From NCBI RefSeq assembly GCF_900104945.1, contig NZ_LT629736.1, positions 3,003,001 through 3,067,000 of the forward strand: a stretch of 64,000 nucleotides of DNA, written 5' to 3'. The translations under genes and the position numbers were made by a program. A model generated the notes under the pieces. The model was not told where the DNA came from. It made no database searches and saw only the letters and a program-made list of their open reading frames with translations. Of the stretch, positions 38,827 to 47,078 are shown piece after piece. Each line of letters begins with the position of its first letter. The stretch's first letter is position 1. The stretch comes from Halopseudomonas xinjiangensis (GTDB lineage Bacteria > Pseudomonadota > Gammaproteobacteria > Pseudomonadales > Pseudomonadaceae).

Positions 38827-39010
38827 TCGTTGCTCTCTCCCCCGTTAATGCATTGTCTCAGCAGCTTCGACTCCACGGGCTCGAAAAAGTCAGCGGGCGC
38901 GGGCCAATGCGGGGGAAGACTCGTGGTTGGATATTTCAGCGGAGCACCGGCCTGCTAGCGGATGCACTAGGCTATGAGGCGAACACATTCACTAGCGAGG
39001 CAGATCCAAC

Positions 39011-39397
39011 ATGGACTCGGTATGCGGCGGCTGCCTCTGTGGCAAGGTGCGCTTCAAGGCAGTGGGCGGACCTGACCGTGTCGGGCTATGCCACTGCCTG
39101 GATTGCCGCAAGCACCATGGCGCGCTGTTTCACGCCTCCGCGATCTTCCCGCAGCAGGCGGTGAAAGTCGAAGGCGTCCCGCATAGCTATGCGGGGCGCT
39201 ACTTCTGCCCAGATTGTGGGTCGTCCGTGTTCTCGCGTACGGGCGATGAAGTGGAGGTCAATCTGGGCTCCCTGGATGAGACGGATCGGTTTACGCCGAG
39301 TTATGAGTTGTGGACGGTGCGGCGGGAGGGGTGGTTGCCGGTGTTTCCGGTCGAGCGGCGGTATGAGGGGGATCGCGAGCCAGAAGACCGCAGTTGA
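39011..39397 (+). CDS. GFA family zinc protein
   Basis: A 128-residue GFA-family protein with zinc-ligand clusters GGCLCGKVRF, GLCHCLDCRKHHGALF and YFCPDCGSSVFSR. Its sequence from about 39070 onward is closely related to the decayed copy at 40290-40660, so the two arose by duplication. The role is unknown. Confidence 0.9.
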   Translation: MDSVCGGCLCGKVRFKAVGGPDRVGLCHCLDCRKHHGALFHASAIFPQQAVKVEGVPHSYAGRYFCPDCGSSVFSRTGDEVEVNLGSLDETDRFTPSYELWTVRREGWLPVFPVERRYEGDREPEDRS

Positions 39398-39514
39398 GTA
39401 CGGCTTCTCAAGGCCGAAAGAATGAATCGGTCGGCCTGGAACCCATCTAAACCGGCTCGGCATCGTACCGCTGTCAGCGGCTAGCTTGATCGGGGATGCG
39501 AGTGCGGCGCCTCG

Positions 39515-39830
39515 TTACCCATGGGCCAGCTTAAGACCGACGATACCCGCGCAAATCAACCCTAAGCTCACCAGCTTGAGAACGTCTGCCGACTCGCCGA
39601 ACAAAACCATGCCCAGCGAGGCCGTACCGACGGCACCGATACCCACCCATATCGCATAGGCTGTCCCGACAGGCAGCGTTTTCAGGGCCAAGCCTAGCAA
39701 CAGGAAACTGGCGAGCAGACAGCACACCGTTCCGACCGAGGGCCAGAGTTTCGTGAAACCATCGGTACTTCAGCCCGATCGCCCAACCAATCTCCAACAG
39801 GCCGGCTACAAACAAAATGATCCAACTCAT
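39515..39830 (-). pseudogene. gdx: Guanidinium exporter Gdx/SugE, frameshifted
   Basis: A small multidrug resistance-family gene of the guanidinium-exporter (SugE/Gdx) type. The first frame encodes MSWIILFVAGLLEIGWAIGL then KY. The rest (DGFTKLWPSVGTV... to ...GIVGLKLAHG) is in another frame. The break is at about 39764, where TACCGAT replaces an expected TAC-ACC-GAT. Adding two bases restores 105 residues, exactly the SugE length. The change is a two-base deletion or an assembly error. A guanidine-II riboswitch lies upstream. Confidence 0.88.
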
Positions 39831-39847
39831 ACTCGTCTCAGTTGGCG

Positions 39848-39893
39848 ATGGGTCGTCCCCGAACGGAATCGAGAGGTGAGGTCGTCCTCACTT
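39848..39893 (-). promoter_or_regulatory. Guanidine-II (mini-ykkC) riboswitch
   Basis: On the minus strand two hairpins carry the diagnostic ACGA loop: GTGAGG-ACGA-CCTCAC (39891-39876) and GGGG-ACGA-CCC (39860-39850), with 15 nt between. The second hairpin ends 19 nt before the gdx start codon. This is the known mini-ykkC architecture, which turns on translation when guanidinium binds. Confidence 0.88.
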
Positions 39894-40289
39894 CAACACG
39901 GCTGACGCTAACACCAACCGAGGCCCAACTGGGGCCTCGCTGCGGAAGCTAAATCTAATCTGATCTGCTTTAACCTCGGCCGTTCTTTTCAGAACCCCCT
40001 TGCGTTTCCGGGTGCTCTATTCCGGCCAGAGGCAGCTGTTAATCGGCTTGGCCATTATGGCTGGCTCATGTATAGGAAACTCGAAAAAGTAAGACGTCGC
40101 GCTCCACGTATATAGGTTTCCCTCTTTTCTATACATGTTGTGTTGGGTGCGCTCGCGCACTCTGCTGCGGCAGAGCGCATCGTCAGCTCTTACACCGCCG
40201 TATCCAGCCTTCGCCCGGCATCCGATCGAGCTGTTTCGCGCCGTTTGTTCTGCGAAGAGATCGTTGACGAAGTCGCGACCAGGACCGAG
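39894..40289. other. Gene-poor stretch between riboswitch and GFA pseudogene
   Basis: No convincing gene. CATGTATAGGAAAC near 40068 and CTTTTCTATACATG near 40124 form an imperfect inverted repeat about 70 bp across. The frames crossing this stretch have no recognisable domains. Confidence 0.4.
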
Positions 40290-40660
40290 CTGTCGCCTGA
40301 CCGGGTCGGCCTGCCATTGCCTGGATTGTCGCAAGCACCATGGCGCTCTATTCACGCTTCAGCGATCTATCCCGCTCAAGCGGTAACAGTCGAAGGCGAG
40401 ACGGGACGCTACTTCTGTTCGCAGTGCGGGTCGCCTGTATTCTCACGCACCGGCGATGAGGTAGAGGTCAACCCTGGCACCTTGGATGAGACGGATCGAT
40501 TCGTGCCGAGTTATGAGTTATGAGTTATGAGTTATGAGTTATGAGTTATGAGTTATGAGTTATGAGTTATGAGTTGTGGACCGTGCGTCGAGAGAGGTGG
40601 CTGCCAGCGTTTTCGGTTCAACTGCAGTATGAGCGGGATCGTGGCCGGAAACCGGGTATG
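40290..40660 (+). pseudogene. Decayed GFA-family paralogue with expanded heptamer repeat
   Basis: The sequence parallels 39060-39395 in the intact GFA gene (zinc motif YFCSQCGSPVFSRTGDEVEV, then DETDRF and PSYEL, then ELWTVRRERWLPAF). It has lost the 5' end including the first zinc ligands. It has a two-base loss near 40316, a deletion of about 12 bp near 40400, and a 56-bp heptamer insertion at 40508 that shifts frame and creates stops. Confidence 0.85.
40508..40577 (+). repeat. Tandem heptamer (GAGTTAT)9 plus one degenerate unit
   Basis: Nine perfect GAGTTAT units at 40508-40570 are followed by GAGTTGT. The paralogue at 39298-39311 has one GAGTTAT and one GAGTTGT. The expansion adds eight units (56 bp), which is not a multiple of three. 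Confidence 0.97.
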
Positions 40661-40697
40661 AGCGCTAAAATAAATCTGTCCCCTTTTCTGCAATGGT

Positions 40698-40781
40698 ACC
40701 TAACGCCGCCAGCACGCGCGGCTTTGGAATGGCGGCGAAGCCGCAATGTAAAAACCGTCGCAGTGACTGGCATGGTTAGCT
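40698..40781 (-). repeat. Integron attC site 4 (downstream of cassette 4)
   Basis: On the minus strand the site starts with AGCTAAC and ends with GTTAGGT, with an internal GCGGCTTCGCCGCC hairpin. It is 84 bp long. The stop codon of the cassette gene lies within the first core, typical of cassettes. Confidence 0.75.
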
Positions 40782-41174
40782 GGGCGAGGGACCAAAGAAT
40801 GACCGGGCCTTAGTCGCTAGGCTTGGCAACTGGCCAAACTCAGACTTGATTCGACTTGTAACTCGCCATTCCTCGACGATGCCCAGGTGACTCATTTCAA
40901 TATCAAAGGTGACCGCCCCTAGAGCACAACAGCTTGCATAGATATTGAATTCACCCTCGAGAGACTCCCAGCCCTCGGTTCCACTCCATGGCTTACTTTG
41001 CAATGCCATCCATTCAAATAGGTCTGCGAGCCCGTGAGCATCTGTGTAGGCCCATACATCCCGTCTCGCGTTAACCGGCCCCGATGATAGAGCTACTGTG
41101 AAATAATCGCCTCTGATGCCGGAAAACAACAGCGTAGCTTCTGTATCTGAAGACTCGATTTGAAACTCTGACAT
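40776..41174 (-). CDS. Cassette 4 protein, DUF6228-like
   Basis: A 132-residue soluble protein starting MSEFQIESSDTEATLLFSG. The segment GLADLFEWMALQSKPWSGTE and GWESLEGEFNIYASC resemble DUF6228 proteins, which are uncharacterised and may include immunity-type proteins; this assignment is from memory. The start lies 10 bp after the preceding attC and the stop falls inside the next attC, so it is a complete single-gene cassette. The in-frame start at 41261 lies inside attC and was rejected. Confidence 0.8.
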   Translation of the reverse strand: MSEFQIESSDTEATLLFSGIRGDYFTVALSSGPVNARRDVWAYTDAHGLADLFEWMALQSKPWSGTEGWESLEGEFNIYASCCALGAVTFDIEMSHLGIVEEWRVTSRIKSEFGQLPSLATKARSFFGPSPS

Positions 41175-41183
41175 TGCTTCTCC

Positions 41184-41270
41184 AGCTAACGATTGCATAA
41201 ACGGCGGCCTGACAAGGCCGTCCGGTGGAGGCCCTTCAGGGCCGGAACAAATTTGATGCACTTGTTAGGT
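41184..41270 (-). repeat. Integron attC site 3 (between cassettes 3 and 4)
   Basis: On the minus strand it starts ACCTAACAAGTGCATC and ends GCAATCGTTAGCT; 87 bp. Complementary internal arms are visible (GGCCCTGAAGGGCC, GGCGGCCT...AGGCCG). Confidence 0.82.
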
Positions 41271-41275
41271 CACTC

Positions 41276-41848
41276 CTACACATACTTCAACGTGTCTGTG
41301 AACAGATCGCGATGCTCTAGTACGGTAAATTTGAAGCGCTTTGACTTCATGGACTTCCATGCCGTCGCTACGGCCGACCAATTGACCTCTCTCCGATTTA
41401 GAGACGCATCGAAAGCCTCAATAAGGTCTGATTCTGATTTTGTGAGTTTTGCGGTCTTTTGTTCAAACGCATCCTGATCCCCAACGAGGCGCCGGAGCCT
41501 CACATTCAGATGAACATCAAGGGCGGCGGCATCTTTATACTTGGCAGGAAACGACAGAATCTTCTTTGCTCTCATTGGGTCTTTGGCAGATAGGCATAGC
41601 AACGCATATTGATTCTGCCGATAGGTAAACGCCTGGTCTGGGTGTTTAGAGAAGCGATGAAACTCTACGTCCAAAAGCTTCTCGACCTCGGACACATACG
41701 CATCATTTGCATTGGCGAGGTAGTAGGCCACCATCAGCTGGTGCCCATCTGCCATGTTTCGTTCCGCAACATCCGGGTTTGATTCGGCATGCTTTCGCGC
41801 CTCCTCGAATGCTCGCTGGGCATTTTGGTAGAGATGCTCGAAGTTCAT
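41276..41848 (-). CDS. Cassette 3 protein, unknown helical protein
   Basis: A 190-residue protein, charged and probably all helical (NAQRAFEEARKHAESNPDVAE, SEVEKLLDVEFHRFSKHP). No signal peptide, membrane segment or motif is recognised. Helical repeats suggest a TPR-like fold, which is a guess. It starts 7 bp after the preceding attC and stops 6 bp before the next one. Base composition is lower in GC than the flanking chromosome. Confidence 0.82.
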   Translation of the reverse strand: MNFEHLYQNAQRAFEEARKHAESNPDVAERNMADGHQLMVAYYLANANDAYVSEVEKLLDVEFHRFSKHPDQAFTYRQNQYALLCLSAKDPMRAKKILSFPAKYKDAAALDVHLNVRLRRLVGDQDAFEQKTAKLTKSESDLIEAFDASLNRREVNWSAVATAWKSMKSKRFKFTVLEHRDLFTDTLKYV

Positions 41849-41854
41849 AGAGTG

Positions 41855-41930
41855 GCCTAACGTCTGGTTGAGGGGCGGGCTTTAGCCTGTCCCCGTGAGC
41901 GAAGCGAACGGCTCGAACCACTTGTTAGGA
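41855..41930 (-). repeat. Integron attC site 2 (between cassettes 2 and 3)
   Basis: On the minus strand it starts TCCTAACAAGTGGTTCG and ends CCAGACGTTAGGC; 76 bp. The internal segment GAGCCGTTCGCTTCGCTCACG provides the hairpin centre. Confidence 0.85.
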
Positions 41931-42069
41931 GGTGTACCCTTACGATGCAATCTCCTTGGCGTGGATGGATCTCGACATTTGCGCCTGAGTCCTTTCGTCT
42001 CCGATTACTTGATATGACAGAGAGGTAGCCCTGCTTTTGAAAGCGCTCTAGGCGGCGATCAGTTAGCAT
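41857..42069 (-). CDS. Possible second small gene in cassette 2
   Basis: A 70-residue frame starting MLTDRRLERFQKQGYLSV. It runs through the attC site and stops at 41857, in the far core. Its first 45 residues are a plausible soluble domain; the C-terminal part is attC-encoded. It may be real or a chance frame. No family is recognised. Confidence 0.4.
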   Translation of the reverse strand: MLTDRRLERFQKQGYLSVISSNRRRKDSGANVEIHPRQGDCIVRVHLLTSGSSRSLRSRGQAKARPSTRR

Positions 42070-42106
42070 TTCGATCAAAACGCTCGGAAATTCACGTTCA
42101 AAGCAC

Positions 42107-42475
42107 TCAAAACGCTGACAAAAACATAATCGTTATGAAACAAGCGTTCGCGGCGATAAAGGAAATCGGTATCAATTTTTCCGAAATGAGGGCATGAACT
42201 GGACCGTACCACAACGCGAAGGATCTAAACTGGCATATCTTGAGCTCTTCATAACCTGCGGTAATAAAAAAGTGGTCGACCTTTATCCCAAATCTTGGCG
42301 CACGCAACGAAAAAGACATAGGCGCATAGAAACGTTTCCAAAATGTTTTATGAAATATCGTTAAGTACATATGCGTGGCCACGCTAATAATAATATAGGC
42401 AGCCGACAAAGCGATCCAAGCGACGAGTGAGGCAACAAAGCATCCGGCAAGGACGTAACGGCATAGCTCACTCAT
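42107..42475 (-). CDS. Cassette 2 membrane protein, unknown
   Basis: A 122-residue protein starting MSELCRYVLAGCFVASL. A long hydrophobic helix covers residues 7-35 and another hydrophobic segment is at the C terminus (ISFIAANACFITIMFLSAF). The middle is basic and aromatic-rich. No family is recognised. It begins 10 bp after attC site 1. Low GC compared with the chromosome supports acquisition. Confidence 0.78.
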   Translation of the reverse strand: MSELCRYVLAGCFVASLVAWIALSAAYIIISVATHMYLTIFHKTFWKRFYAPMSFSLRAPRFGIKVDHFFITAGYEELKICQFRSFALWYGPVHALISEKLIPISFIAANACFITIMFLSAF

Positions 42476-42484
42476 TTCGTTTCC

Positions 42485-42562
42485 GCCTAACGCAGAGCTT
42501 TGCGGCAATTTTGTAGCCGCGAAGCGGTGGAGAAATTGTCCGGCAACAGCGACTTGTTAGGC
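42485..42562 (-). repeat. Integron attC site 1 (between cassettes 1 and 2)
   Basis: A canonical site: GCCTAAC at one end and GTTAGGC at the other, perfectly complementary, 78 bp. Internal CAATTT/AAATTG arms flank a GCTTCGCGGC centre. The cassette 1 stop codon overlaps the first core. Confidence 0.92.
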
Positions 42563-42859
42563 ATTGCGGAGCCTCCATCGCTCGGGGAATCGCCTAATCT
42601 CGGCGATGTCTCTATTTGTCAGACCAAAATGAGTTTGGAGATAGACCTCATCAACCTCGACCGTTTCTGAAGGAGTGCCGTGTGCAAAGCCGGCGGGGCG
42701 GTCGCGGGTCTCAATGAAGATACTGGCTTCTGCCTCATAAAACACCAAGGCGCTCCACATCGGTTTGTTTCCGCTCGGCCCCTTAATCACGTCAATCACT
42801 GCGTCAAGATCGACCTGACCCATTTCACCAGACATCTTTATGTACGCACAAAGCATCAT
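42557..42859 (-). CDS. Cassette 1 protein, unknown
   Basis: A 100-residue soluble protein starting MMLCAYIKMSGEMG. It contains DAVIDVIKGPSGNKPMWSAL, FIETRDRPAGFAHGTPSET and a C-terminal helix HFGLTNRDIAEIRRFPERW. It has no recognised family. The stop lies inside attC site 1 and the start is 11 bp after a GTTAGGC core, so it is a complete cassette. A second ATG is one codon downstream. Confidence 0.8.
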   Translation of the reverse strand: MMLCAYIKMSGEMGQVDLDAVIDVIKGPSGNKPMWSALVFYEAEASIFIETRDRPAGFAHGTPSETVEVDEVYLQTHFGLTNRDIAEIRRFPERWRLRNA

Positions 42860-42869
42860 TTTTAGTGTC

Positions 42870-42876
42870 GCCTAAC
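42870..42876 (-). other. Core recombination site at the promoter-side end of the cassette array
   Basis: An isolated GTTAGGC core on the minus strand, directly before cassette 1. A possible partner, ACCTAAT, lies only 11 bp away, so no full attC is present. It may be a truncated attC or the old attI junction. Confidence 0.55.
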
Positions 42877-43098
42877 AGTGATTAGGTGGAACGCCGCGAT
42901 ATTACGCGTCATATCATTCAGCGCCCTAAATAGTTTTTCTGCCATATTTTCAGTCGGTTGCGCTTCAAATTTGCAACGGCACTCCGCTGGTTATACCGCG
43001 TTCCGCATAACCCCAATACAGCGGAACAGCCCGAAGCGCTCCAAACGCATCCTGACCGAGCGGCAAAAGCCAATGCGCCACCGCCCGGTCATCACGCA
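42877..43098. other. Gap between cassette array and lipoprotein gene
   Basis: No integrase gene is present. A minus-strand frame of about 40 codons (42858-42980) ends just past the GTTAGGC core and contains MAEKLFRALNDMTRNIAAFH. It could be the tail of a lost cassette gene. Confidence 0.4.
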
Positions 43099-43650
43099 TC
43101 ACTCCACCAACGAAACCTGCTTCGGCTCAATCTTCAACTGAGCCAACCGATTCAGAAAATTCTTAATGTTCTTCTTCGCCGAACCTTCGTTGGCCATGCG
43201 CAGGCGCGCGACGCCGGAGAAGGCATCGCCGACGGTGGCGGTGTGAGGCACGGCAACCAGTTCTTCGAGCAGGGTTTGGTTGGTCTGGGTGTCGATCAGG
43301 CTGTAGCGGATGCGGGTGGTGACGGTCATGTCGAAGCCGAACAGGGGCTGGTCGACGCCGACGAGGGTGGCCCGCAGCTTGTAGCGGCCGTTGTCGGAAT
43401 ACAGGTTCTGGGCGGAGAGGCTGTCTCGCAGCGCGCCGAAGAAGGCGTTATTGCTGATTTCCGAGGTCCAGGCCGGGTTCGTTTCGCGGCCGCCGGAGAC
43501 GGGCTCGACGTCTACGTTTCTGCTCAACTCCTGAGCGTAAGTCGCGGACTGGTAGGAGCGGTAGGTGATGTTTTCCTGCTTGGCGCCGGCGGCGCAACCG
43601 AACAGGTAGGTGCTTGCAGCGAAAATGGCCAAGAGCTTGATGAGTTTCAT
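43099..43650 (-). CDS. Putative lipoprotein of unknown function
   Basis: A 183-residue protein. The N terminus MKLIKLLAIFAASTYLFGC has a lipobox ending at Cys19. The mature part is mixed alpha/beta with repeated strands (YKLRATLVGVDQPLFGFDMT, TRIRYSLIDTQTNQTLLEEL). It is expected at a periplasmic membrane face. No family can be assigned with confidence. Confidence 0.78.
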   Translation of the reverse strand: MKLIKLLAIFAASTYLFGCAAGAKQENITYRSYQSATYAQELSRNVDVEPVSGGRETNPAWTSEISNNAFFGALRDSLSAQNLYSDNGRYKLRATLVGVDQPLFGFDMTVTTRIRYSLIDTQTNQTLLEELVAVPHTATVGDAFSGVARLRMANEGSAKKNIKNFLNRLAQLKIEPKQVSLVE

Positions 43651-43872
43651 GTGATGACTTCCGTGTTTTGGCAGTTTTTTATTGTGGTGTTACTGCGAAG
43701 CGTCAGGCGCGGGCCAGCCCGGGCGGGCAGGCGGCGATCGATCAGGAGAGCATCGTATCGGGCATCCTTGCCGAGGTGGGGTGCGATAGAGCGGTTCGCA
43801 GTGGGAGATAGTGCTATGAAATTTGTGGTTTTGCCAAGGGGGATTGCGATGGGTGGGGTCGAGGATTGAACT

Positions 43873-43915
43873 GGCGATGCGGGGCAACGCATCGCGCCGG
43901 GGACGACGCTCCCAC
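43873..43915. repeat. REP-like palindromic repeat, copy 1
   Basis: GCGATGCG and CGCATCGC form a perfect 8-bp stem at 43875-43895, followed by GCGCCGGGGACGACGCTCCC. A close copy is at 45854-45895. Confidence 0.75.
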
Positions 43916-43976
43916 GGAGGGGGGTGGGCTAGCGGCATGCGCGTGATTTCTTACACGCCATCGTTACCCGAACAAA

Positions 43977-44015
43977 CAAAAGCCCCGGTCTCGCGACCAA
44001 GGCTTTGTTTTTTTT
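43977..44015. terminator. Terminator at the 3' end of the ice-binding-domain gene
   Basis: AAAGCC and GGCTTT flank an inner GGTC/GACC stem. Eight T follow on the plus strand and TTTTGTTTGTT follows on the minus strand. It lies 40 bp past the minus-strand stop at 44055. Confidence 0.7.
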
Positions 44016-44054
44016 GCGGGAGCTCCTGAGAGTCCCCGCTCACACTGCTACCGG

Positions 44055-45596
44055 TTACGGCTGAGTAGCGTTTACTGCATCCAGCGTGACCAGAGTCTGG
44101 GCCAGTGCGCGACCGTTCAGGGTCGCACCGGTTTCCATGACGATCTGTGTCTTGCTCAGCAAGATGCCCTGCAGCGTGGCGCCCGTACGCAGCGTCACCT
44201 GACCGGCTACCTGCCAGAAGACGTTTTCTGCCTTGGCACCGCCAGTCAGTTGCACGGCTACGTTAGAACCCAGCAACAGGTCCTGCTCGATCTGCAGAAT
44301 CCAGACGTCATTCGGGCCGCCGTCAAAGGTGACGTCCGAAGTTGCCTGCACACTAGTGCCCCACTTGTACAAGCCGGGAGCCAGAGTCATGCCGGTGATA
44401 TCACCTGCACCCAGTTCAGTAGCTGCAGGGTCAGTGCGGCCCGCTGCGTTGGTGAAGGCCAGCTCCATGTCGCTGATGGCCGTGGTCAGGTAGCTTGGCG
44501 TCGGGGCGGCCATGTTGGCGGCAAAGATCTTGCCGGTCACCAAGTCGGAAGTGGAGAACGTGTTAGTGGCGTCACGCTCCTGGCTAAAGCCGGTGATGGC
44601 TGCTTCGTCGATCGGGCTGACGCCGATGTCACCGATGATGGCTGTGGTGCCGGTGGTGGTGACACCGGTTTTCGACAGAATCACGAAGTTGCCAGCGGTG
44701 CCCAGTACAACCGGTTCCGGCCCGGCAGCCGGTACCAGACTGTTCTCGGTGGTGAACTCGGCAATTTGCCCAGCTGCCAGCGCATTGGCCGGGTTGGCCA
44801 GGTCTGTGATGGCCGTGCTCAGCATCGCGGTGTAAAGCGTACCGGGCAGCAGGTCGGCGGTCGGATCGAAGATCGCCGTGCTACCCAGGTAGCTGACCGC
44901 GCCAGGCACCGGGTTACCACCAGTCGTCAGCGTAAAGTTGCTGGCGGTGATGGTGGTGGGGTCGAGGCTTTCGGAGAAGGTCGCGGTGATGTTCCGGTTG
45001 ATGGCTACCTGCGTATCGCCATCGAGCGGATCGAAGGTGACCGTGGGTGCGGTGGTATCGATCGTGTCGCCGGTGGTGAACTGCCAGCTGAGGTTGTTCT
45101 CCAGCGTGACGCCCGAAGCGCCCTGTACGTCGGTGGTCAGCGTGCCGGTATACAGCGTGTTATCCGTCAGACCGCTGTCAGGCGTGAAGATCGCCGTGCG
45201 GGTAGCCGGGTCGTAGGTGACCACGCCGACCACCGCAGGGCCTGTCTCGCCTTGCAGCAGGAAGGACGTGCCGTTGATGGTCTCGCCTTCCATATCCTGG
45301 TTGAAGGTAACGGCGAGCTTCTTGTTGGTGTTGACCGTGATGCTGTCGATGATCGGCCGCACCGCCTGGATCAGATCGGAATCGCCGATCGGGTCGGATG
45401 GGGTGGCTGTCGGGTCGTCGGTGCCTGGTGTACCTGGGGTGCCAGTCTCGGGCGTACCGGTCACGGGCGTTCCGCCGCCTGTGTTGGGATTGTCACTGTT
45501 GCTGCTACTGCCGCCTAAGCAACCGGCTAGCGATAAGCCGGACAGGACAATAGCGCTGACGGCCAGCAATCTGGCGGCAGGAAGGAATTTTTTCAT
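44055..45596 (-). CDS. DUF3494 ice-binding-domain lipoprotein with Ig-like (SbsA-type) domains
   Basis: A 513-residue exported protein. Residues 1-26 are a lipoprotein signal ending LAGC. A Gly/Thr/Pro linker follows to about 72. Two Ig-like Big_5/SbsA-type domains follow (about 80-175, DSITVNTNKKLAVTFNQDM; about 180-285, FDPLDGDTQVAINRNITATF). Residues about 295-510 are a DUF3494 ice-binding-like beta solenoid (LGTAGNFVILSKTGVTTTG, IIGDIGVSP, LAPGLYKWGTSVQATSDV, VFWQVAGQVTLRTGATLQGI). In the family this domain binds ice or mediates adhesion. Surface attachment is inferred. Confidence 0.9.
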   Translation of the reverse strand: MKKFLPAARLLAVSAIVLSGLSLAGCLGGSSSNSDNPNTGGGTPVTGTPETGTPGTPGTDDPTATPSDPIGDSDLIQAVRPIIDSITVNTNKKLAVTFNQDMEGETINGTSFLLQGETGPAVVGVVTYDPATRTAIFTPDSGLTDNTLYTGTLTTDVQGASGVTLENNLSWQFTTGDTIDTTAPTVTFDPLDGDTQVAINRNITATFSESLDPTTITASNFTLTTGGNPVPGAVSYLGSTAIFDPTADLLPGTLYTAMLSTAITDLANPANALAAGQIAEFTTENSLVPAAGPEPVVLGTAGNFVILSKTGVTTTGTTAIIGDIGVSPIDEAAITGFSQERDATNTFSTSDLVTGKIFAANMAAPTPSYLTTAISDMELAFTNAAGRTDPAATELGAGDITGMTLAPGLYKWGTSVQATSDVTFDGGPNDVWILQIEQDLLLGSNVAVQLTGGAKAENVFWQVAGQVTLRTGATLQGILLSKTQIVMETGATLNGRALAQTLVTLDAVNATQP

Positions 45597-45959
45597 GTGA
45601 GTTACCTATGTTGGAAAGCCGACCACGTCATGCAAGGTGCGGTGGCATCCGGTACCTGAGAGAAACTCGAATCTAAAACGGACGCTCACGATCCCTGTTT
45701 TGTTGTCAGTAAAGTTCAGGGCTTATGAGATGGCGTCGGGGATGGGAGTCTGGCGCAATGTGTTCACTAGCCAGACTGTTATACGCCCTATCCTGAAGAA
45801 TAGGTGGTTTATATTCGAGGGGGTCGGTGGAGGGGTGATTCGCTCGCAAACCCGGCGATGCAAAGCATCGCATCGCGCCGGGGGCAACGCTCCCATGAAA
45901 CCCAGGCCTGCGTGCCTCGCGCACTGGCGAGACTCCGCGAAACTGTGGAAGCGGTATGG
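45597..45959. other. Gap containing a REP-like palindrome
   Basis: No gene is supported. It is the upstream region of the ice-binding-domain gene and the right edge of the accessory island. A REP-like repeat lies at 45854-45895. Confidence 0.6.
45854..45895. repeat. REP-like palindromic repeat, copy 2
   Basis: GCGATGC-AAA-GCATCGC is a perfect 7-bp palindrome, followed by GCGCCGGGGGCAACGCTCCC. It is similar to the copy at 43873. Confidence 0.75.
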
Positions 45960-47078
45960 TTAGTGGCGTAGGCCGTACATAGCCTGTTCACTGATAGCGT
46001 GGTAGGCGGAGACTTTTTCGCGGAAGGCTTCCATCGAGTCCCATACCTGACGGGTCAACTGGTCGGTGTTGGCGGTGTCTTCGAGCACATCGGCAGACAG
46101 CTCGCGCAGGCGGTCGAGTACCGCTTCGGGTAGCTGGCGCAGCTGCACGCGGTGTTCGGTGACCAGGGTCTGCAGGGCTTCGGCGTTGCGGCGGGTGTAT
46201 TCGTCGAGCATGGCCTGGTTGGTCGAGCGGGCGGTCTGGCGGACGATGGCCTGCAGGTCGGCCGGCAGCGCTTCGAGTGCGGCCTGGTTGATGCTCAGCT
46301 CGAGCACGGCACAGGGCTCCTGCCAACCGGGGTAGTAGTAATACTTGGCCGCCTGATACAGACCAAAGGCGAGGTCGTTATACGGACTGACCCAGTCGGT
46401 GGCGTCGATCACGCCGGTTTCCAGCGCGGTGAAGATCTCACTGCCCGGCAGGTTGACCGTGGTGGCGCCAGCGCGCGCGAGTACTTCGCCGCCGAAGCCG
46501 GGCATACGGATCTTCAGCCCCTTGAGGTCATCGACGGCGTGGATTTCCTTGTTGAACCAACCGGCCATCTGCACGCCGGTGTTGCCGCAGGGCAGCGGTA
46601 CTACACCCATATCGGCGTAAGCCTGCTGCCACAGCTCCAGCCCGCCGCCCTCGTAGAGCCAGGCGTTCATTTCCTGGGCGTTCATGCCGAAGGGTACGGC
46701 GGTGAAGAACGGCGCGGCCGGGCTCTTGCCCTTCCAGTAATAGGCGGCGCTATGGCCGAGCTCGGCGGTGCCGTTGGAGACGGCGTCGAATACTTCCAGC
46801 GCGGGGACCAGCTCCCCAGCCGCGAAGACCTGCACGCTCAAGCGACCGCCGGATAGCTCGTTGACGGTATCGGCAAAGCGCTGCGCGGTGGTGCCCAGAC
46901 CGGGGAAGTTCTTCGGCCAGGAGGTGACCATCTTCCATTTATAGGTTTGCTGCTGGTTGGATTCGCACTCGGCTGCGGCCTGGTTCAGACCTTGATTCTG
47001 GTTGTCGCCCTTGCAGCCAGCGAGTGCAGCAGCCCCCAGGCCAAGCCCGGCAGCGGTGAGGATTTGACGTCGTTTCAT
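45960..47078 (-). CDS. TRAP transporter periplasmic receptor (FcbT1-like)
   Basis: A 372-residue solute receptor of the mannitol/chloroaromatic TRAP subtype. The N terminus MKRRQILTAAGLGLGAAALAGC has a twin-arginine-like pair and a lipobox at Cys22, so it may be a membrane-anchored lipoprotein. Conserved segments are YKWKMVTSWPKNFPGLGTTA, LKGLKIRMPGFGGEVL and GVIDATDWVSPYNDL. Matching permeases lie at 32365-34301, separated by the accessory island. Confidence 0.92.
   Translation of the reverse strand: MKRRQILTAAGLGLGAAALAGCKGDNQNQGLNQAAAECESNQQQTYKWKMVTSWPKNFPGLGTTAQRFADTVNELSGGRLSVQVFAAGELVPALEVFDAVSNGTAELGHSAAYYWKGKSPAAPFFTAVPFGMNAQEMNAWLYEGGGLELWQQAYADMGVVPLPCGNTGVQMAGWFNKEIHAVDDLKGLKIRMPGFGGEVLARAGATTVNLPGSEIFTALETGVIDATDWVSPYNDLAFGLYQAAKYYYYPGWQEPCAVLELSINQAALEALPADLQAIVRQTARSTNQAMLDEYTRRNAEALQTLVTEHRVQLRQLPEAVLDRLRELSADVLEDTANTDQLTRQVWDSMEAFREKVSAYHAISEQAMYGLRH

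Follow-up and report, generated by a model that had tools for sequence, protein, structure and literature searches.

The window analysed here, a stretch of 64,000 nucleotides from Halopseudomonas xinjiangensis (contig NZ_LT629736.1, positions 3,003,001 to 3,067,000), contains an integron cassette array of four attC sites that is headed by an attI-like site. Comparison with other genomes of the genus indicates that the locus is probably an array of four cassettes at an attI platform that stands alone, in a genus that carries several such platforms and would use one integron integrase (IntI) in trans. Headed by an attI-like site, the array is more than a bare cluster of attC sites. The integron of this genus would be distributed over the integrase gene (intI), together with an attI and array of its own, and several further arrays at other loci, each headed by an attI. 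Cassettes would be excised as attC hairpins and could be inserted at, or leave from, any head core when IntI is made, the integrase of the native integron presumably acting in trans on these heads.

The array of the window and its attI-like head

The attC sites were scored with a covariance model (CM) that was trained without the window, on 12 attC sites from relatives, and was run over 382 kb. The features of the locus, from the head downwards, are as follows.

40684..43034, no strand: the array with its head, neither of which is present at the same place in the nearest relative (G001)
42870..43034, plus strand (core towards the expected intI side): attI-like head, type 2, about 165 bp, by profile homology
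42557..42859, minus strand: gene of cassette 1, closest to the head; open reading frame (ORF) of 100 aa with its stop within W4
42485..42562, minus strand: attC W4, 78 bp; held-out CM 31.1 bits
42107..42475, minus strand: gene of cassette 2; ORF of 122 aa
41855..41930, minus strand: attC W3, 76 bp; held-out CM 36.7 bits
41276..41848, minus strand: gene of cassette 3, an orphan of 190 aa
41184..41270, minus strand: attC W2, 87 bp; held-out CM 31.7 bits
40776..41174, minus strand: gene of cassette 4, a DUF6228 protein of 132 aa from the ATG at 41174; stop within W1
40698..40781, minus strand: attC W1, the final attC of the array, 84 bp; held-out CM 26.1 bits; inner stem with 5/5 and 3/3 pairs

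The head starts with the core GCCTAAC (42870-42876), the presumed insertion point of cassettes. A type-1 attI profile, derived from 11 intI-linked attI sites of the genus, finds its best place in the 64 kb at 42871-42905 with 10.8 bits (E 0.0066). Type-2 profiles made from stand-alone heads of other genomes, without the window, cover almost the whole head, with 39.9 bits (E 6e-12) for eight sequences (an outlier and a near-duplicate among them) and 51.4 bits (E 8e-15) for six. They gave no match at E<=10 in the reversed window, in the corresponding locus of G001 (L065) read forward or reversed, or in L066, L067 and L008. The type-2 core AACAGTGATTAG is the same as in the intI-linked attI sites of type 1, and the two types diverge further out. 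By homology, an attI thus heads the array, and we infer that it functions as one. No consensus for sigma-70 was found on the array-directed strand of the head, such consensus scans being weak evidence. The original prediction, made from the letters alone, had ended the array at 42876, the last base of the head core, and had labelled it a CALIN (a cluster of attC sites lacking an integrase). The label was right in that no integrase lies beside the array, and no intI signal appeared in the part of the window from 39001 to 46000; the attI-like head at 42870-43034 had been overlooked.

The same prediction of four attC sites of 76-87 bp with minus-strand genes was borne out in full: the held-out CM, a check it had itself proposed, recovered W1-W4, all on the minus strand between 40698 and 42562, with 26.1-36.7 bits and E values from 7e-8 to 2e-4, and no further attC in the window at E<=1. 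The training sites had been chosen by core and stem rules and their pair statistics are therefore partly built in, which does not apply to the held-out matches in the window. A CM search with the filters off missed W1-W4, which the default-filter run recovered; we take the miss to be a hit-length limit of the short CM. In a CM search of the own genome, two of the four sites were among the best 150 of 1906 candidates. Simple patterns performed less evenly: a loose core-plus-stem expression over the 64 kb matched W1-W3 only, W4 failing the stem rule, two stricter patterns had zero matches, and another pattern found W2-W4 and one chance-looking site, with 9 and 7 matches in the reversed control. 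The spacing of the sites reproduces the predicted cassette spans of 385, 630, 671 and 486 bp, and two genes do end inside an attC core, with stops at 42557 and 40776. The claim that most intergenic space is attC holds in part, but 176 bp between the cassette-2 gene and W3 are neither gene nor attC.

The sites have the elements of attC hairpins, namely outer R''/R' and inner L''/L' stems, an unpaired spacer and an extrahelical base. The inner stems of W1-W3 have 5/5 pairs, a bulge of one base and then 3/3 more pairs, and that of W4, read by eye, has 3/5 pairs with two mismatches. Bottom-strand folding, which had also been proposed as a check, gave z values of -2.4, -4.3, -1.9 and -2.7 for W1-W4 (the plus strand of the window), and 3, 0, 10 and 3 of 200 shuffles folded as well. 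However, the top strand folds comparably (z -3.7, -3.4, -0.7 and -3.1), so that folding alone cannot pick out the bottom strand. In a DNA search of 37 genomes of the genus, which scored at most eight candidates per genome and also brought up the second array of this genome, the matches listed outside the window all fell on attC and none on a cassette body; among these matches, W1 is 76-86% identical to attC sites of the genus, W2 95% identical to stretches in G025, G028 and G031, and W4 up to 96% identical to attC sites of the genus.

In G001, the sequence corresponding to the window from 43035 onward starts at L065 14530, and the left edge of the insert is given by a 17-bp exact match (window 40667-40683, L065 14492-14508). 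Left of this match, G001 carries about 440 bp of its own, including a GNAT-like gene (by eye), which makes the left edge less certain than the right. The flanks at 3.04 Mb are collinear with those of G001, and L065 has neither an attC at E<=1 nor a match to the head. Such an empty site would also be expected if an IntI from elsewhere had put cassettes into an arbitrary attG-like genomic site, a known route (attG work as cited in the available excerpts of PMC12444791 and PMC11023631). We regard off-target insertion as very improbable here. In front of the array lies a 165 bp element common to heads at unrelated loci, which a short generic target would not give; the target in the window is thus not a generic one without an attI-like element.

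Heads with and without intI in the genus

The 37 genomes were searched with the type-1 attI model, taking the best 93 of 136-367 candidates per genome, so that the counts are lower bounds. Rows at E<=0.005 and the window's own weak row were kept, 105 heads in total, and weaker rows were dropped. If intI is required to match at E<=1e-30, to lie no more than 1.5 kb away and to have the expected side and strand, 20 of these heads have intI and 85 do not. The surroundings were examined for 80 of the 85, and 74 of them extend for 1 kb or more on the intI side; of these 74, 68 showed no intI signal, and six carried N-terminal intI remnants. With the type-2 matches of at least 38 bits added, the survey comprises 124 heads, 20 with intI, six with a remnant and 98 without (68 of type 1 and 30 of type 2), a minority of these 98 labels resting on the E<=1e-30 intI search alone, where the surroundings were not examined or a contig end is near. 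At least one head without intI occurs in 33 of the 37 genomes. Since the nine single-contig genomes have five heads with intI, one with a remnant and 30 without, broken assemblies are not the cause. None of the 27 type-2 heads with screened surroundings has intI on the expected side.

Many of the heads are followed by attC sites. Applied to the 80 head regions at E<=0.1, the attC model gave 98 matches, all 98 on the array side and on the predicted strand, with at least one attC in 52 regions. The same rule of side and strand was obeyed by 28/28 attC matches outside the window in the type-2 regions, nine of these being counted in the 98 as well. In 55 of the 80 heads, homology to attI stops between profile positions 162 and 195 of 238, and the motif ACGCTACCGCCC is common right after this end in many type-1 orphan heads. 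Searched against plasmids, a type-1 orphan head had no match.

The most serious alternative is ordinary decay, by which each head without intI is a relic of a complete integron that lost its intI, the window array being one of these relics and the cassette differences predating the loss. The remnants at six of the 74 screened heads fit such a history, and intI loss is listed as an origin of CALINs in the available part of a review (PMC8618304). However, decay would have to account for the 98 heads without intI against 20 with it, and for the type-2 heads, where intI is missing from the expected side in 27/27 regions. It would also have to explain why the attI homology ends at a fairly fixed place, for which selection on the retained part could be another explanation. 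We consider decay unlikely as the general explanation, though less so than any of the other alternatives.

Some genomes also contain other recombinase genes. An IntI-like tyrosine recombinase gene lies on the array side near a head in G030, G028 and G029 (L193 1658-2431, L231 1773-2534 and L232 3654-4425). These recombinases have no match to the profile segment of about 176-234, which we take to be the position of the IntI-specific helix. The gene is possibly an element that targets attI. A class-1-like integrase gene is carried in addition by G030 and G020 (L009 and L010), and resistance-like genes adjoin it in L010.

Cassette differences between genomes and the presumed source of the integrase

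The heads recur at fixed places of the chromosome while the cassettes next to them differ. Fifty of the 80 heads fall in 15 chromosomal sites, each common to two to eight genomes; one of them, found in eight genomes, lies upstream of a gene that we recognise as, presumably, valS. Among the genome pairs at recurring sites, the flank is conserved and a cassette-side match of at least 120 bp exists in only 4/83; both genomes have a cassette side longer than 500 bp in 76 of the 83 pairs. At seven sites the mean pairwise identity is 0.17-0.41 just beyond the core on the cassette side versus 0.70-0.85 in the first 37 bp of the head.

The clearest case is a type-2 locus shared by G012 and G001, which are different species. 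Their head sides are 100% identical over 1,560 bp, and their cassette sides differ by one mismatch in 1,789 bp (99.94%). G012 has an extra 1,024 bp, consisting of two cassettes that sit exactly between the type-2 core and the shared array. The alignment shows that two cassettes were gained or lost exactly at the type-2 core. With loci so nearly identical, this cassette-exact difference looks recent, which argues against decay. A plasmid of Stutzerimonas stutzeri, p1_PM101005 (NZ_CP046903.1), carries a cassette block 99.4% identical to that of G012 over 1,119 bp next to a head only 82.8% identical to that of G012, the identity changing at the core. In this stretch, two attC matches lie on the expected strand and side, and a third, weak one (12.9 bits) does not. 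The cassette-exact difference and the shared block lend indirect support to the view that the heads recombine with attC as an attI does. It seems to us an evenly balanced proposition that one intI serves many stand-alone attI platforms, both at fixed places in the chromosome and on plasmids, type 2 having evolved as an intI-free docking site.

As to the integrase of the genome studied here (G000), which is complete in one contig of 3.54 Mb, nothing exceeds the cut-off for integron integrases (TIGR02249). The genome-wide intI search suggested by the original prediction did turn up a fragment, 1 Mb from the array of the window. Matches below the cut-off are two other tyrosine recombinase genes, taken for xerC and xerD, and this 28-codon C-terminal IntI match at C1:2039148-2039231. 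The fragment LLGHSDVLTTQIYTHVLGQAFAGVQS occupies the place of intI in G001, between genes taken by eye for a catalase and an EamA transporter, an interval in which G001 has an integron whose intI carries two stop codons. At this native locus of G000, only the IntI end is left of the integron, whose place is taken by a LysE-like gene (by eye). Comparison of the two intervals indicates that the native integron of G000 was deleted down to the IntI fragment, a deletion of intI that also favours decay. A second attI-headed array of the genome lies at 3.32 Mb, with two attC sites, no intI and 57.6 bits against the attI profile. Because IntI is lost, this array and that of the window are probably frozen, stranded by the loss of the native integron. 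The second array is located near a 722-aa ATPase-like protein, defence-like by eye (L092 5439-7607 and 8594-9665).

The native and window loci hold complementary remnants, which would also be expected if attI and cassettes had moved from 2.04 Mb to 3.04 Mb and left the IntI fragment behind. However, the head of the window is a far better match to type 2 (40-51 bits, held out) than to type 1 (10.8 bits), to which the native attI of G001 belongs (as one of the type-1 training rows), and the flanks at 3.04 Mb keep the order that they have in G001. A move of the native attI to the window was accordingly dropped as a reading once the head proved to be of type 2, and a split native integron appears to be a far-fetched explanation, only marginally less so than off-target insertion.

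Several observations weigh against stand-alone platforms served in trans. That the loci of two species, G012 and G001, are nearly identical suggests that the entire region was transferred recently. G012 has only an intI fragment at E<=1e-30, and with the two stop codons in the intI of G001, no enzyme can be assigned to the difference between the two. In two of the 27 type-2 heads, an IntI-like recombinase gene is present on the array side. Twenty-eight of the 80 head regions have no attC in the examined stretch, and the heads with N-terminal pieces of intI indicate that some heads derive from intI loss in place. A cassette promoter consensus was seen on the array-directed strand of 1/67 heads versus 9.8 expected. 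An inverted repeat in the type-2 heads looked good by eye, but its covariation was not supported, with 77.2% of cells paired versus 75.3% in shuffles (24/500 as high) and, by score, 0.191 versus 0.163 (18/500 as high).

Cassette contents, surroundings and relation to known integrons

The original prediction could assign none of the four cassettes, and this still applies to three of them; no function for any was obtained from Rfam, NCBIfam, PADLOC or PHROGs. The fourth encodes a protein of DUF6228 (Pfam PF19739, 98.9 bits; the longer ORF gives E 3e-28), itself a family without a known function. Homologues of cassette 4 with 46-49% identity occur in two of 36 other genomes of the genus, at loci that both lack attC, and distant matches to its protein were found in four Vibrio plasmid records. 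Three of the four cassette proteins were also searched for in plasmids, with no match. Cassette 3 has no Pfam match above the cut-off and none in NCBIfam, PADLOC or PHROGs, is confined to its own genome among 369 genomes of the class searched, and yields a fold model of low confidence (pLDDT 51). Hydrophobic stretches seen by eye suggest that the product of cassette 2, which has no family match in Pfam, NCBIfam, PADLOC or PHROGs, may be a membrane protein. Cassette 1 has no match in Pfam, NCBIfam or PADLOC, a weak PHROGs match of unknown function (E 0.0014), and a fold model with pLDDT 54. The GC content is 50% in the array versus 62% in the window.

A decayed-looking second copy of a GFA-family gene lies at 40140-40660, with the intact copy adjoining at 39011-39397, and a run of a 7-bp repeat (GAGTTAT) at about 40508-40573 falls within the decayed copy. 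To the right of the array, a 42-nt interspersed repeat (43873-43914 and 45854-45895, 86% identical) brackets a gene of 513 aa at 44055-45596.

The array of the window resembles a CALIN in having two or more tandem attC sites in one orientation (four by the held-out CM) and no integron-integrase gene nearby, and differs in its conserved attI-like head. With a sedentary chromosomal integron, consisting of intI, attI and array, it shares the attI-like core, the insertion point and the cassette order at the head; unlike it, the window array has no intI beside it and, by the weak evidence of consensus scans, no recognisable cassette promoter, and the genomes carry many heads instead of one platform. 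As far as the accessible text of the sources goes, attG insertions likewise place cassettes far from intI and are served in trans, but use consensus sites that are neither attC nor attI at many loci, in contrast to the long conserved element at recurring loci found here.

CALINs are common, and it has been proposed that they are integrons in a degraded state (PMC9024848, available excerpt); off-target insertion and rearrangement are listed beside intI loss as their origins (PMC8618304, available part). According to the portions available of a study of Xanthomonas (PMC12444791), CALINs distant from intI occupy conserved chromosomal sites that recur across species, in contrast to scattered attG insertion; no attI is reported at these CALINs in those portions. 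By analogy, heads that stand alone could be one reason why these CALINs have fixed positions. A truncated attI inside mobile-integron arrays was shown to recombine (PMC12901181, available excerpt). Neither attI-headed CALINs nor stand-alone attI platforms appear among the titles and opening lines of abstracts listed for the literature searched, most subscription papers lying outside its scope. The parts are known, and within that literature the arrangement, with stand-alone attI heads of two classes and several per genome, appears to be new.

If our reading is correct, many CALINs would be live acquisition platforms instead of debris, and one integrase would reach several first positions per genome. 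A plasmid bearing a head could collect cassettes without an integrase of its own. Profiles of the heads could be added to integron-finding software. If many CALINs carry a conserved attI head, they would represent addressable landing sites, which would help to explain the fixed positions of CALINs across species.

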